A stretch of DNA of 64,000 nucleotides from Natroniella sulfidigena. GTDB lineage: Bacteria > Bacillota > Halanaerobiia > Halobacteroidales > Halobacteroidaceae. The translations under genes and the position numbers were made by a program. Location of the stretch: the NCBI RefSeq assembly GCF_023223645.1, contig NZ_JALKBY010000003.1:62001-126000 (forward strand), in the 5' to 3' direction. Shown piece by piece: positions 51,367 through 56,614 of this stretch. How positions within the stretch are numbered: the first letter of the stretch is position 1; every line of letters starts with the position of its first letter. The notes beneath the pieces are model-generated. The model had not been told where the DNA came from and did no database searches. It saw only the letters and a list, made by a program, of their open reading frames with translations.

Positions 51367-51603
51367 TGTGAGTTTTACAAAGAGTCCGAAAGGACTTGTA
51401 GGGTTACCCTTGTTTTAGAAGAATGATTACTTAAGGTGACACAGAATTGTAATTAAACTTCATCTTAAAATCCAATAATTATTTATAGCTATGCAACTCT
51501 AGAATAAAATTTGAGTCTTTTTACTAGTCACTAATTACTAGTCACTGCCATCTAACTTATCGTTAATATTTCTTCCAGTTTAAAGTTGGATGACTATAGT
51601 AAG

Positions 51604-51652: not shown

Positions 51653-53377
51653 TTAAAAGTTAACACTTACTTCACCAGTAATGCTTTGTGCATCAAAGCT
51701 ATCAGTATCTACAGCACCTGTGAAGTCAATAGTTTCGTAATTGATTGATGCAGTAGCATCATCACTTACTCTATAATCTGCTCCTAATTGAGAAGTTACC
51801 TTCTCACCTAATAAACCATCAACTCGAGCTTCTTTGTCAGCCCAAGCATAACTTCCAGTTAAAGTTACTCTATCATTTGCTTCATAAGCTGCATCTACAC
51901 CAGCTTCAGTGTTTAAGTGTCGTTCATTATCGATATTGTCATAAATACTTGCTAATTCAGCATATGGTGCAATACTAGTATTAGCAAATTCAAACTCCGG
52001 TGCATAAGCTACACTCATTACTGTATCAGCTAAGTCTTCAGTATTATCATAGTCATAGATTGCAGCTAAAGAGATATCATTGAAATCTTTGTTAGCTTCA
52101 ACATATCTTACTTCCTCTTCAGAATCTAATCCATACTCATAGTTACCGAATACATCTACACCATATAGAGTATATGGATTCTCATCAGTAACCTCAGCAG
52201 TCAAGATAGTATCTTGACCTTCTACATCATAATCTTCGTAAACAGCTCCTAACTCAAACTTATCTAAGTCAGTAAATAATCCAATGTCATACCCTTGCTC
52301 ATTTGCTTCAAAGTCATCATCAGCTTGAATTCCTTCAAAGTCATTAGTATACTTATAGTTACCTTCAACTGTGAACATTCCTAAGTCTTGTTCAGCACCT
52401 ACTCTAGCTAACTTGCTATCTAATTTAGAATCATTAGTAGCAACCTCACCAGTAAAGTCAACACCTACTAAGTTGAATGCAGTATCTAACCCTGCAACTG
52501 TAGTTCTTCCTTCTGTATCATCATCTTCAATACCTGCAAATACATTCAATGGTAAATCAAATAAGTTATCTTGTCTTAAAGCAATATCTCTAACATTTCT
52601 TGCTTCATCATCTTCTCCTACTTCATCTTGTCCTACTGCAACAGTAGAATCATTTGCTTTAAAGATGATACCGTGAATATTCTCTTCATCGTCATACAAG
52701 TAATCCTTCCAGTCTAAATCTTGATCTTCACCAACAGTCGCTACAAAATCTTCAGTTGCAATTTCACCAGAAATGCTGTCTAATTCAAAAGCATTAGTAG
52801 CTTCATCTTCAGCTGTAAATTCACCAAAGTAATTTCCAACTACTGCTAAGTCAAGATCAGCAGTCACACCATCCTTCTCAACATTTACATTAAAGTCTGC
52901 ATACTGCTTGAAGAAATCTTCTGCATCAATATCATCCCAGTCATCTTCATCCTCAAATGGATTTTCAACTGCATCTCCATCAGTCTTAACATTTGTATAC
53001 TCTACTCCAGTCTCACCAGAGATAGTTACTACTTCTACATCAGTTAATCGGCTATCAATTGCAGCTAACTCTTGGTCAAACTCAGTAGCCAATTGATTGA
53101 TTGCCTCTACAACTTCTGCTTCTAACTCATTGTTATCAGCTTCAACTTCGTCTAACATTCTAGCTGTCAAAACTGCAACTTGGTATCGAGTTAATTCTTC
53201 TTCACCTCGATAAGTTCCATCTTCATATCCTTCAATAATTCCTGTCTCTGCTACTTGATTCAATGCGTCATATGCCCAGTGATGTCCTTCTACGTCTGCG
53301 AACGGATTAGCAAGTGCTGGTACAGTTAATGTTACTAGCATTGCTAATGTTAATAATGCTGTTATTGTCTTTTTCAT
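51653..53377 (-). CDS. SLH-domain outer membrane porin (OmpM-like)
   Basis: The 574-residue protein has a signal peptide (ending TVPALA), one SLH domain (NPFADVEGHHWAYDALNQVAETGIIEGYEDGTYRGEEELTRYQVA, residues about 24-75), a coiled-coil linker (about 85-120) and an acidic barrel ending TGEVSVNF. In Negativicutes, OmpM-type proteins tether the outer membrane to peptidoglycan by the SLH domain and form pores. A long 5' leader with a predicted fold precedes it. AGGGGG supports the start. Confidence 0.92.
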   Translation of the reverse strand: MKKTITALLTLAMLVTLTVPALANPFADVEGHHWAYDALNQVAETGIIEGYEDGTYRGEEELTRYQVAVLTARMLDEVEADNNELEAEVVEAINQLATEFDQELAAIDSRLTDVEVVTISGETGVEYTNVKTDGDAVENPFEDEDDWDDIDAEDFFKQYADFNVNVEKDGVTADLDLAVVGNYFGEFTAEDEATNAFELDSISGEIATEDFVATVGEDQDLDWKDYLYDDEENIHGIIFKANDSTVAVGQDEVGEDDEARNVRDIALRQDNLFDLPLNVFAGIEDDDTEGRTTVAGLDTAFNLVGVDFTGEVATNDSKLDSKLARVGAEQDLGMFTVEGNYKYTNDFEGIQADDDFEANEQGYDIGLFTDLDKFELGAVYEDYDVEGQDTILTAEVTDENPYTLYGVDVFGNYEYGLDSEEEVRYVEANKDFNDISLAAIYDYDNTEDLADTVMSVAYAPEFEFANTSIAPYAELASIYDNIDNERHLNTEAGVDAAYEANDRVTLTGSYAWADKEARVDGLLGEKVTSQLGADYRVSDDATASINYETIDFTGAVDTDSFDAQSITGEVSVNF

Positions 53378-53540
53378 TTCTTAGTTCCCCCTAGATTTTT
53401 AAGTTTAATTGATTTGATTTATCTAGGTATTCTAGCTATAACGTACATAATCTAGAGGAGCTTCCAGTTTGAGTTGCCTTGTTTCCTCAATCTTTCCTAC
53501 TCCCTGTAACTATGCCTTGTCCAGCTAAAATACCTGTTCT

Positions 53541-53623
53541 AAGTATCTTTTTATCCTGCTTTACGGTCTCTCTGGGGGACACCTCCTTTCTCGACCAGGA
53601 TCAAAGCTAGGATCAAGATACTT
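53541..53623 (-). ncRNA. Candidate structured leader RNA, copy A
   Basis: On the minus strand the outer stem is AAGTATCTT with AAGATACTT, then ATCCT with AGGAT, then GGTC with GACC. They enclose a core GAAAGGAGGTG, CCCC and, after GACC, GTAAAGC. The same core lies in the leader of the gene at 55417 with different stem sequences. It ends about 164 bases before the porin start. No known class is recognised. Confidence 0.55.
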
Positions 53624-53632
53624 GAACACTAT

Positions 53633-53667
53633 ATTAGTGACTGGTGACTAGTGATTAGTGACTAGAA
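53633..53667 (+). repeat. Class C heptamer array
   Basis: The units are ATTAGTG, ACTGGTG, ACTAGTG, ATTAGTG and ACTAGAA. Confidence 0.8.
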
Positions 53668-53772
53668 AAATTCCTAATTGAATTTTTCCATCACGAAGAG
53701 TTCAAAGAACTCGTAGGACTAATTACCAATCATGAAAAGCTACAATTTATATTAATTTCAGTAACTAACTAA

Positions 53773-53860
53773 TTTAAGTTTGAGGCTAAGTTTTAGTTTA
53801 AGCCAACCATCAAAACCATAAAGGTTTAGATCTTACTTAGACTTAAACTCAGACTTAACC
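53773..53860. repeat. Imperfect foldback with hexamer words
   Basis: The left arm has TTAAGTTTGAGGCTAAG-like hexamers, and the right arm has CTTAGACTTAAACTCAGA, its imperfect complement. It is related to 39094 and 45028. Single-arm words recur near 53980, 56905 and 57500. Confidence 0.6.
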
Positions 53861-54064
53861 TGAAATGAACTCTGTTCATTTCGTTATTTTTCGACAAAAT
53901 TCGACATTACAGGTAAAAAAATATATGTAGTCTGCTCTTGTCTTATTTTAAGCTCAAGACTGAATTCAAATTTTAGACTCAAACTCAGACTTGAACTCAA
54001 AATCAATTTTCTTATGCTCTAATATAAGTATTAAACACATCCTGCTAAAATCCTGTTAGTAGTT

Positions 54065-54104
54065 ATTGGTAACTAGTGATTTGTGATTAGTGACTAGAAA
54101 GACC
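54065..54104 (+). repeat. Class C heptamer array with class A tag
   Basis: The five units are ATTGGTA, ACTAGTG, ATTTGTG, ATTAGTG and ACTAGAA, followed by AGACC, the same tag as class A arrays. Confidence 0.8.
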
Positions 54105-54191
54105 AAAACAAATTCATAATCTTTGTTTTGAAATTTTACGCTTGCTATATTTATTAATTTGACGCTTCCTTCTAAAATCCTCTTGGTAGTT

Positions 54192-54226
54192 AGTGGTAAC
54201 TAGTAACTTGTGATTAGTGACTAGAA
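54192..54226 (+). repeat. Class C heptamer array
   Basis: The units are AGTGGTA, ACTAGTA, ACTTGTG, ATTAGTG and ACTAGAA. It is the second tandem copy. Confidence 0.8.
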
Positions 54227-54368
54227 AAAACAACTCAGAACTTTTGTTTTTGAAGTTTTTGCTCTTGCATTATTATTTATTTGACGTTTCCTTCTAAAAT
54301 CCTTTTAGTAGATATTTGCAATTTATTATTAAGCGATTGCTCTAGATCAATCATTGATTTTTTTGCTC

Positions 54369-54405
54369 TTCAGTTATTCAATATTAAATATTAAGTATTC
54401 AATGC
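54369..54405 (+). repeat. Class B heptamer array
   Basis: The units are TTCAGTT, ATTCAAT, ATTAAAT, ATTAAGT and ATTCAAT, then GC. Confidence 0.75.
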
Positions 54406-54447
54406 TTTCCCGCTGTTTCCTTTAAGTAAATAATTCTTGCTTAACCA

Positions 54448-54485
54448 TAAAAAAGAGCTATTAGTCAATTATAATGACTAATAAT
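54448..54485 (-). terminator. Terminator of the 242-residue barrel gene
   Basis: On the minus strand TTATTAGTCATTATAATTGA then CTAATAG forms a stem around ATTATAAT and is followed by CTCTTTTTT. Confidence 0.75.
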
Positions 54486-54493
54486 TCCAACTA

Positions 54494-55222
54494 CTAAAAA
54501 TCAAGCTCAGCTCCTAGCGAAAATCCATCTACAACAGTTATAAATTCTCTGTTCCTTACTCCACTATCCTCTGTAAAGTAAAGTTCATTCTTAATCAAAT
54601 AACTGGCCTTGACTCCAAGCCACTCTCGCAGTTGATACTGCAAACCCAGATCAATTGCGACATCAATTAGATTTCCTTCGTACTCCCCTTCCGAAAAATC
54701 TGTATATTCTAGTTGGTACTGACCGATAGGTGCATGAGAAAGTCTCAAACTCACCCCAAGCTGTTGAGATAAATCAAGAGCTGCTTTGACACTCAGCGGT
54801 AGACTGATAGCTGTCAATTCTGCAAGATCATCGATTATAGCCTCTTGCCTCTTTCGTTCCCGATAATCAAGGCCAGCTCCTAGTGCTAAATCAAGCCGAC
54901 CTAAACTAAAGGGACGATATATCTCAGCTCCAACTGCTAAATAATCAGAATCACCAGTTCCTTGGGATTGATCGTAATCGCCTACTATTCCCTTACCTTT
55001 AAGATAATAACTGCCTAGCCTTGTTTCTGCTAGGAAACGAATTGCTCCTAACTCCTTCTCGCCAGCAATCCAGCTAGCTTGATTGCTTTCTTGACTACGC
55101 AATATCTCATCATTTAAGCTAGCATATCCAACACCGAAACGAAATCTATTTTCTGCTGCTTCCCCTGGTAAAGAGAACAATACAATAATCAAAAATACTA
55201 AGAAAAAAATATTTTTCTTCAT
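54494..55222 (-). CDS. Small outer-membrane beta-barrel protein
   Basis: The 242-residue protein has a signal peptide (NIFFLVFLIIVLFSLPGEAAE), then about eight to ten amphipathic strands (FRFGVGYASL, YYLKGKGIVG, LDLALGAGLDYR, LGVSLRLSHAPIG, LGVKASYLIKNELYF) and a C-terminal Phe (SLGAELDF), as in OmpX/PagL-size barrels. Function is unknown. GGGG before the ATG and its own terminator suggest a single-gene unit. Confidence 0.8.
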   Translation of the reverse strand: MKKNIFFLVFLIIVLFSLPGEAAENRFRFGVGYASLNDEILRSQESNQASWIAGEKELGAIRFLAETRLGSYYLKGKGIVGDYDQSQGTGDSDYLAVGAEIYRPFSLGRLDLALGAGLDYRERKRQEAIIDDLAELTAISLPLSVKAALDLSQQLGVSLRLSHAPIGQYQLEYTDFSEGEYEGNLIDVAIDLGLQYQLREWLGVKASYLIKNELYFTEDSGVRNREFITVVDGFSLGAELDF

Positions 55223-55361
55223 AATCAGCCCCCTGATCTATACTATCTTATGTCTTGACTATTCTTTACCAAGGTAATTAATTCCTTTTAATGCTGGGCA
55301 GATTTTTGGTTTTAGCTCTCAGCTCATGCCTCATGACTCACGACACATAGCTGATAAAAGT

Positions 55362-55397
55362 AAAAAACCTCCAGAGCCGTTGGCCCTGGAGGTTTTT
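55362..55397. terminator. Strong terminator of the 55417 porin gene
   Basis: CCTCCAGAGCCGTTGGCCCTGGAGG forms a GC-rich stem, with AAAAAA on one side and TTTTT on the other. It is probably bidirectional. Confidence 0.9.
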
Positions 55398-55416
55398 ATT
55401 TCTAATTAGGTTGTAA

Positions 55417-56490
55417 TTAGAAGTTAGTAGTTAGAGTTGTAGTGATAGTATCTTCATCTACATCATCACCAGCAAGTTCACCATCTCTATTTTCAAACTC
55501 AAACTCTAACGTAGTATTTTCAGCTAAGTCATACTCAGCACCTAGAGTTAAGACATCCACTTCATCATCGTCAGCATCATGCATAGCATACTCGAAGCTA
55601 GCTACTAAGCTTGGAGCAACATCATACGCAGCATTGAATGCGATAACTGTTTCATCATCATCAAGGAATCCAAAGTCTCCAGCTATAACATCGTCACTAT
55701 CTAAATCTAAACCACCTTCAAACAAGTCAGCTTCACCTAGATACCCTTCATCCATTTGACCATAGTCAAATCCAACAGTTAAACCTGGAGCCAATACATC
55801 AGTCTCTGCTCCTAATTGAAAAGCACTTTCTTCAAAATCAGCAAATGTTACATAGAAGTCAGCCATTTCATGGCTATTATCCACTGCAATACTGAATCCA
55901 TTTTCATCTAGATCATTAAGATCTACCTCATAAGCATCCTTAATACCTTCAATATCACTTTCTGTAAAGTCTGCTATATCTCCAGCATGTACATTATCAA
56001 CAAAGTTCAAAGTAGCTGTAGAAGTAACCTCTCCAAATACAAGATCACTTACACTAGCTTCAACAAACTTCTGAGAATCATCATTGTCTAAGTCACTAGC
56101 AAAAGAAACAGCAACATTTTCTACTGCATAAGAGAACTCTGCTCCATGTACATCAGTATCATATAGTAAATCTTGTGGTGCAGCTATTGTCCAACCATAA
56201 CCTGCTTTTAGAGCAGCTCCTGGTAATTCTACTAGATCAACATTGATCCATGCTTCGTCTACCCATGTGTCCTCATTTTCTGCTTCTAATCCTACAAAAG
56301 CTGTTACATTATCAGCTGGATTAGCTGTGAAATCTAACTCAATACTAGTTGTATTATTTACCCAACTATCATCATCATTATCCTCATACTCTCTTTCAAA
56401 CTCAACCTCACCTGCAATGTCTACTGCCATAGCTGGTACAGCCATAGCTAAAACTAACGCTAACGCTAACAAAATTGAAATCTTTTTCAT
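55417..56490 (-). CDS. Outer-membrane porin-like barrel protein
   Basis: The 357-residue protein has a signal peptide (ILLALALVLAMAVPAMAVD) and an acidic barrel with regular strands (GEVEFEREYE, SIELDFTANP, NVTAFVGLEAENEDTWVDEAWINVDL) ending TTTLTTNF. It resembles general porins but has no SLH domain. The ATG at 56490 follows AAGGGGG; an in-frame TTG extension is unlikely. The 5' leader holds a structured core shared with the SLH porin gene and a 9-bp hairpin right before the ribosome site. Confidence 0.85.
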   Translation of the reverse strand: MKKISILLALALVLAMAVPAMAVDIAGEVEFEREYEDNDDDSWVNNTTSIELDFTANPADNVTAFVGLEAENEDTWVDEAWINVDLVELPGAALKAGYGWTIAAPQDLLYDTDVHGAEFSYAVENVAVSFASDLDNDDSQKFVEASVSDLVFGEVTSTATLNFVDNVHAGDIADFTESDIEGIKDAYEVDLNDLDENGFSIAVDNSHEMADFYVTFADFEESAFQLGAETDVLAPGLTVGFDYGQMDEGYLGEADLFEGGLDLDSDDVIAGDFGFLDDDETVIAFNAAYDVAPSLVASFEYAMHDADDDEVDVLTLGAEYDLAENTTLEFEFENRDGELAGDDVDEDTITTTLTTNF

Positions 56491-56504
56491 TATAATCCCC
56501 CTTA

Positions 56505-56528
56505 ACAATTTTATCTTGGTAAAATTGT
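56505..56528 (-). promoter_or_regulatory. Hairpin next to the ribosome binding site
   Basis: Perfect 9-bp arms ACAATTTTA and TAAAATTGT surround CCAAGA immediately upstream of AAGGGGG. It could stabilise the mRNA or control translation. Confidence 0.6.
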
Positions 56529-56570
56529 ATTTAATTTTTTTATAAAATTAAACTGAATAAGCTTATATAT

Positions 56571-56614
56571 CAAGCTTACCGGTTTACGGGGTTTCACCTC
56601 CTTTCCACCGCTTG
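56571..56614 (-). ncRNA. Candidate structured leader RNA, copy B
   Basis: On the minus strand the stem CAAGC with GCTTG and inner GGT with ACC enclose GGAAAGGAGGTG, CCCC and a GTAAACC/GGTAAGC tail. The core matches copy A at 53541 while the stems differ. It ends about 80 bases before the start codon. Confidence 0.55.

Follow-up and report, generated by a model that had tools for sequence, protein, structure and literature searches.

A conserved leader RNA with a Shine-Dalgarno mimic ahead of outer-membrane protein genes in Natroniella sulfidigena and its relatives

A 64,000-nucleotide (nt) stretch of the Natroniella sulfidigena genome (contig NZ_JALKBY010000003.1, positions 62,001 to 126,000; hereafter the window) was analysed for the leaders of two outer-membrane protein genes, named here after their lower coordinates, 51653 and 55417. 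These leaders belong to a conserved, structured RNA that consists of an element A alone or of an element A followed by an element B, and which is tied both to outer-membrane genes and to sequence complementary to the 3' end of 16S rRNA. Judged from its sequence, its most likely role is that of a cis-acting leader RNA with its effect at the ribosome, through translation or mRNA stability. We give roughly even odds (about 0.5) to the reading that both leaders carry a cis-acting RNA family which regulates genes for porins and tethers of the outer membrane once transcription has begun, through an exchange between a decoy Shine-Dalgarno (SD) sequence, a short run of C residues (C-run) and the SD of the gene. 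Such an RNA would probably act as a general control, by on/off switching or through stability, of the outer-membrane envelope of two-membraned Firmicutes relatives. To our knowledge, the way in which outer-membrane protein synthesis is adjusted in two-membraned Firmicutes is not well understood, and a leader RNA that tracks Omp85 across a sample of the phylum (for element B, p ~1e-55) and stands ahead of OmpM tethers and porins offers a concrete handle on its control.

Structure and distribution of the two leader elements

Both leaders lie on the minus strand. That of gene 51653 reads GAAAGGAGGTG-T-CCCCC-AGAGAG-ACCGTAAAGC, with an outer pairing of AAGTATCTT (53615-53623) with AAGATACTT (53541-53549), while that of gene 55417 reads GAAAGGAGGTG-AAA-CCCC-GTAA-ACCGGTAAGC, enclosed by CAAGC (56610-56614) paired with GCTTG (56571-56575). 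The original prediction, made from the sequence of the window, had noted that the two leaders share these blocks in one order and that their outer stems differ yet pair; both features were seen in the two leaders, and the block order was found to be kept in 13/13 examined genomes of the order (Halobacteroidales). Element A can be described as a hairpin with paired stems of variable sequence and a near-fixed tip, GAAAGGAGGUG-nn-CCCC. When compared with shuffled sequences, the fold of the gene 51653 leader is far more stable (z -5.2), whereas that of the gene 55417 leader alone is weaker (z -1.8). The entire leader of gene 51653 folds into two separate domains, A and B (z -4.8).

The 13 genomes of the order were approached by a protein search made without reference to the motif, which found an orthologue of the SLH-domain outer-membrane protein (SLH-OMP) in each of them. 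Ahead of every one, ~180-230 nt upstream of the start, stands GAAAGGAGGTG-nn-CCCC, with a single genome deviating to AAAAGGAGGTG...CCCT; since these genomes were found by protein and not by motif, the retained block order is not due to chance. GGAGG is fixed in 91/91 aligned copies of element A and the C-run is near-invariant. As that alignment came from a covariance model which selects the motif, this invariance is partly by construction, and the same invariance was seen in the 13 genomes that had not been so selected.

The inner helix of element A reads GGUC/GACC, GCUC/GAGC, GGC/GCC, GGU/ACC or AGG/CCU in different genomes with pairing kept throughout. An ACCG(G)TAAAGC stretch that had been proposed as a further conserved block proved to be the 3' strand of this helix, and it varies by genome (GACC, GCC, GAGC, ACC, CCU) with its pairing retained. 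In an alignment of the core which was fitted by hand to the structure, 98% of helix cells are paired and double changes number 17, compared with 4.8 after shuffling, with nothing comparable after the helix partners were slid. An unfitted MAFFT/RNAalifold analysis of 19 other members of the class (Halanaerobiia) arrived at this hairpin too, its two stems holding six compensated pairs. The proposal that compensation between the leaders reflects a conserved RNA structure is thus borne out by covariation of the inner helix far above both controls and by the compensated pairs, and element A is a real, conserved, folded RNA. The tip itself, GG-A-GG/CCCC, shows no variation at all, so that folding, not covariation, is what supports it.

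A covariance model (R1) built on the 31-nt core of element A was then matched in 41/59 genomes of the class, with two further, weaker matches upstream of SLH-OMPs. In a sample of 398 genomes of the phylum (Bacillota), R1 matched in 48, of which 41 were left once matches inside unrelated genes had been removed. Several weak matches inside genes (e.g., G054:C48, G050:C15, G260, G376, and G377) were set aside as false, there being no outer-membrane gene after them. Practically all true matches are followed by a gene whose start lies 66-314 nt downstream, and these genes encode a signal peptide followed by SLH and a barrel, or by a barrel-like protein. Within the same sample, element A occurs in 40/101 Omp85-positive vs 1/297 Omp85-negative genomes. 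Many families outside the class have it too, and it correlates best with the presence of an outer membrane and not with salt; the ion or halophile-specific signal first suggested found no support. No element was found in the leaders of a different kind of short SLH protein (L030-L039), nor was element A found in the Negativicutes-type leaders examined.

Element B, which the original prediction did not include, has the form stem-AG[GHAACNNGGNNA]CU-stem. Its loop pattern is present in 76/91 leaders, where by our estimate fewer than 1% of leaders of such length would carry it by chance; the stem covaries and sits on a longer irregular stem. Leaders of more than ~130 nt nearly always contain element B, and short ones, including that of gene 55417, are without it. 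Its covariance model (R2) matched 122/398 phylum genomes at E<=0.3 and 77/398 at E<=0.01, the latter being 75/101 Omp85-positive vs 2/297 Omp85-negative genomes (Fisher 1e-55). In one family (f40) there are OmpM gene arrays with one element B per gene; the N-terminus of these OmpM proteins matches the OmpM1 chains of Veillonella parvula (E 2e-18), and on sequence grounds the family appears to be Negativicutes. Two loci, L204 (G199:C3) and L205 (G386:C31), hold arrays of OmpM paralogues ~1.5 kilobases apart, each with its own element B and a GGAGG SD.

The Shine-Dalgarno mimic and the Shine-Dalgarno sequence of the gene

The fixed strand of element A, GAAAGGAGGUG, is the complement of the 3' end of 16S rRNA, and the corresponding 16S tail, GCTGGATCACCTCCTTTCT, is present in the organism's own genome. 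The U and the G that follow GGAGG are fixed although they are unpaired in the hairpin, a feature which complementarity to 16S rRNA accounts for in both cases and which the hairpin structure does not. Of the two roles first offered for the buried GGAGGTG, that of an anti-SD target is supported, the stretch being SD-like and complementary to the organism's own 16S tail, and that of a ligand pocket found no support. As an ideal ribosome-binding site, GAAAGGAGGUG might serve a short upstream reading frame encoding a leader peptide. A start codon (ATG/GTG/TTG) 4-11 nt after GGAGG is absent from 85/90 copies, however, and the remaining five all have it at 11 nt, mostly opening frames of seven codons; the upstream frame was rejected on this count and is very improbable.

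The position of element A on the message was considered next. Several genomes have a promoter close to consensus, TTGACA-18-TATAAT, whose end lies 51-54 nt upstream of the element A core, and consensus matching gave strong promoter matches ~42-54 nt upstream in ~10 genomes; the copies in the window yielded no convincing one. With a promoter at 51-54 nt, element A would start no more than ~20 nt from the 5' end, near which it is accordingly predicted to lie. A check for transcription attenuation found no terminator on the coding strand of the leader and a T5 run between element A and the SD in only 6/91 leaders, and attenuation was rejected. With terminator-like features so rare between element A and the gene, control is likelier to act on translation or decay than on the termination of transcription.

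An SD-like sequence that does not initiate translation has a precedent in the STAB-SD of Bacillus thuringiensis cry3A, which lies near the 5' end, binds the 3' end of 16S rRNA and blocks RNase J1 (PMC4113751). Element A might likewise be a 5' stabiliser of this type, on which a parked 30S subunit blocks 5'-3' decay and gives long-lived outer-membrane messages, the hairpin merely presenting the site. The mimic is similarly complementary in sequence to the 16S 3' end, with no start codon at a suitable distance in nearly all copies; it may lie close to a predicted 5' end, and it stands ahead of genes for abundant proteins, their products in V. parvula ranking with the most abundant proteins of the outer membrane (PMC10628300). 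It differs from the STAB-SD in standing within a conserved hairpin that has a C-run and a covarying helix, in its coupling to a gene SD that is itself unusual, and in being followed in most cases by a second conserved element, B. A simple stabiliser needs neither the C-run nor the covarying closing helix, element B or the GGGGG of the gene, and folding predicts a mostly paired mimic, so that we regard stabilisation by itself as a tentative alternative.

The unusual gene SD, which like element B is an addition to the original prediction, is GGGGG for both genes in the window. It is present in 119/122 start rows with a complete element A, the three exceptions all coming from one gene read from three start codons (some further genes also enter these counts more than once), and in 35/67 leaders that have element B without a complete element A. 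Its association with element A survives stratification by family (p 4e-6), and the contrast between leaders with and without a complete element A is visible inside individual genomes (G001, G002, and G005); in the window, 9/53 genes have a GGGGG SD. GGGGG pairs with the C-run of element A without a bulge, whereas the GGAGG of the mimic can do so only through a bulged A, and this difference is a hint of partner exchange. Taken from the sequences, it suggests that the C-run may alternate between the mimic and the gene SD. Degenerate copies of element A in L176 (G304), L228 (G391), and L251 (G208) have kept GGAGGTG and lost the C-run, with a gene SD of GGAGG or GGGGG, and these form a natural series for the link between C-run and SD.

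It is possible to sketch how such an exchange would operate. Domain A holds a full SD mimic, predicted to pair with the short C-run by a bulged, weak helix, and this mimic would serve as a docking site for the 30S subunit of the ribosome. The C-run would then have two possible partners, the mimic, when the hairpin is closed, or the GGGGG SD of the gene. If the mimic were opened or occupied, the freed C-run would cover the start of the gene, and if the hairpin were closed the start would be exposed, so that the translation of the porin, and probably the life of its message too, would be set by the state of element A. The likely input site for a protein or ligand would be domain B, in which the 12-nt loop is fixed. 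In its fullest form this would be a strand-exchange switch in which decoy and gene GGGGG compete for one C-run, porin translation is set by how fully ribosomes occupy the 5' decoy, element B provides the input, and the whole constitutes a common outer-membrane protein supply circuit in two-membraned Firmicutes; to this complete version we extend only tentative credence. Because the states of decoy and gene SD would be linked, a ribosome-based switch is open to direct testing.

Several results weigh against the exchange. Thermodynamic folding places the C-run on the gene SD ~15% of the time on average and more than 50% of the time in a minority of leaders. In most leaders the default fold is the mimic hairpin, with the mimic mostly paired, and a stable pairing of C-run and SD as the default was rejected as it is not predicted in most leaders. 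The pairs between mimic and C-run never vary, and neither do those between C-run and SD, so that covariation can prove neither. Furthermore, paralogue group and phylogeny are partial confounders of the association with GGGGG. Sequestration of the gene SD by the 3' strand of element B, which had been seen by eye in Halobacteroidales leaders (CCCCTnGATTAT vs TAATCTAGGGGG), was set aside because many leaders with element B alone have a GGAGG SD.

Comparison with known RNA classes

At the gathering threshold, no Rfam 15 family, the cyclic di-GMP (c-di-GMP) and Na+ classes included, matched in the window or in 27 related loci, and at E<5 nothing plausible was found for the leaders. The original prediction had likewise been unable to match the structure to a known riboswitch, yet a described relative is probable. 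This is the SLH motif, a riboswitch candidate reported as a structured RNA before SLH-protein genes in Firmicutes (Clostridia and Negativicutes) and Synergistaceae, with ~60% of its copies upstream of SLH genes (Stav et al., 2019, PMC6429828). Elements A and B also lie upstream of SLH-OMPs in Firmicutes, and element B, in its gene targets and taxa, fits the SLH motif closely, down to the Negativicutes-type OmpM genes of the family f40, in which element A was not seen. An SD mimic, a GGGGG SD, plain porins and an Omp85 association go unmentioned in the text of that paper. From gene targets and taxa, and without a claim of identity, the SLH motif is probably element B or overlaps it. If they are the same, what is new would be element A and the SD mimic it carries, the link with the gene SD, the extension to plain porins and the outer-membrane-wide distribution. 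Other structured-RNA surveys carry no mention of S-layer, porin or outer membrane.

A riboswitch role was proposed for the motif before SLH genes, with c-di-GMP as a suggested ligand (Stav et al., 2019, PMC6429828), and element A, element B or both could be an aptamer for a small molecule or ion, as the very high conservation of the element B loop and the element A tip would allow. Element B is however a simple hairpin with no multi-stem junction or evident pseudoknot, the conserved strand of element A is accounted for by 16S complementarity, the c-di-GMP, sodium and other Rfam classes are unmatched, and the genes point to no ligand common to so many families; we consider an aptamer unlikely. 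The leaders share with translational riboswitches and other SD-masking RNA switches the possibility that alternative pairing hides or exposes a ribosome-binding site, and they differ from these in matching no known aptamer class of Rfam 15 and in having no ligand indicated.

The short hairpin, fixed loop and covarying stem of element B are typical of protein sites, and element B, perhaps together with the GGA of element A, may be bound by a CsrA-like protein, another RNA-binding regulator or an autoregulating envelope factor. Many element B loops read ACANGGAN, which we take to resemble CsrA targets. The third base of GGN in this loop varies (A 47, C 15, U 13, and G 1; n=76), a poor fit to CsrA, for which a conserved GGA in a hairpin loop is the mark; element B does not conserve it, and the GGA in element A is inseparable from the SD mimic. 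A protein site of this kind is possible, if doubtful.

Window features and neighbouring genes

The features described above are collected in Table 1. The N-terminus of the gene 51653 product matches V. parvula OmpM1 (8BYS, E 2e-19). A Pfam search of the gene 55417 product gave no matches; its ortholog in Natroniella acetigena, 65% identical, was the sole match among the searched genome contigs. In the leader of gene 55417, the hairpin AAGCUUGAUAUAUAAGCUU could, speculatively, compete with the outer stem of element A, two sequences being known for this comparison.

Table 1. Coordinates of the leader elements and genes in the window
Feature	Position	Strand	Basis
SLH-domain outer-membrane protein, OmpM-like (gene 51653)	51653..53377	minus	Pfam SLH, E 5e-11
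SD of gene 51653, GGGGG in CUAGGGGGAA	53387..53391	minus	Sequence
Element B, gene 51653 leader: outer stem AUUUUAGCU/AGCUAGAAU, inner stems, apical hairpin	53429..53531	minus	Whole-leader fold; kept in relatives
Element B apical hairpin UUGAG[GAAACAAGGCAA]CUCAA, loop GHAACNNGGNNA	53469..53490	minus	Loop pattern, stem covariation, whole-genome search
Element A, gene 51653 leader: long hairpin GUUCAAGUAUCUU...AAGAUACUUAGAAC, inner helix GGUC/GACC	53536..53627	minus	Fold (z -5.2); same structure in 13/13 order genomes; helix covariation
C-run CCCCC in element A, predicted partner of SD mimic	53574..53578	minus	Fold; C-run near-invariant
SD mimic AGAAAGGAGGUG inside element A, gene 51653 leader	53580..53591	minus	Complement of 16S 3' end CACCTCCTTTCT in own genome
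Outer-membrane beta-barrel-type protein with signal peptide (gene 55417)	55417..56490	minus	Open reading frame; ATG 56488-56490
SD of gene 55417, GGGGG in AAGGGGGAU	56497..56501	minus	Sequence
Hairpin AAGCUUGAUAUAUAAGCUU, overlapping 3' arm of element A, gene 55417 leader	56559..56577	minus	Minimum-energy fold favours it over CAAGC/GCUUG
Element A, gene 55417 leader: CAAGC-GGU...ACC-GCUUG	56571..56614	minus	Fold; orthologous copy in sister genome
C-run CCCC, gene 55417 leader	56588..56591	minus	Sequence, fold
SD mimic GAAAGGAGGUG, gene 55417 leader	56595..56605	minus	Sequence and 16S complementarity

A third outer-membrane barrel gene (54494-55222, minus strand), with a weak Pfam OMP_b-brl match, lies between genes 51653 and 55417; its SD is GGGGG and its leader has no visible GGAGGTG/CCCC element A. 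Dispersed intergenic copies of a TAGTGACTAGTGATTAGTGACTAG-like repeat also occur near these genes, at 51520-51560, 53636-53665, 54058-54105, and 54180-54228.

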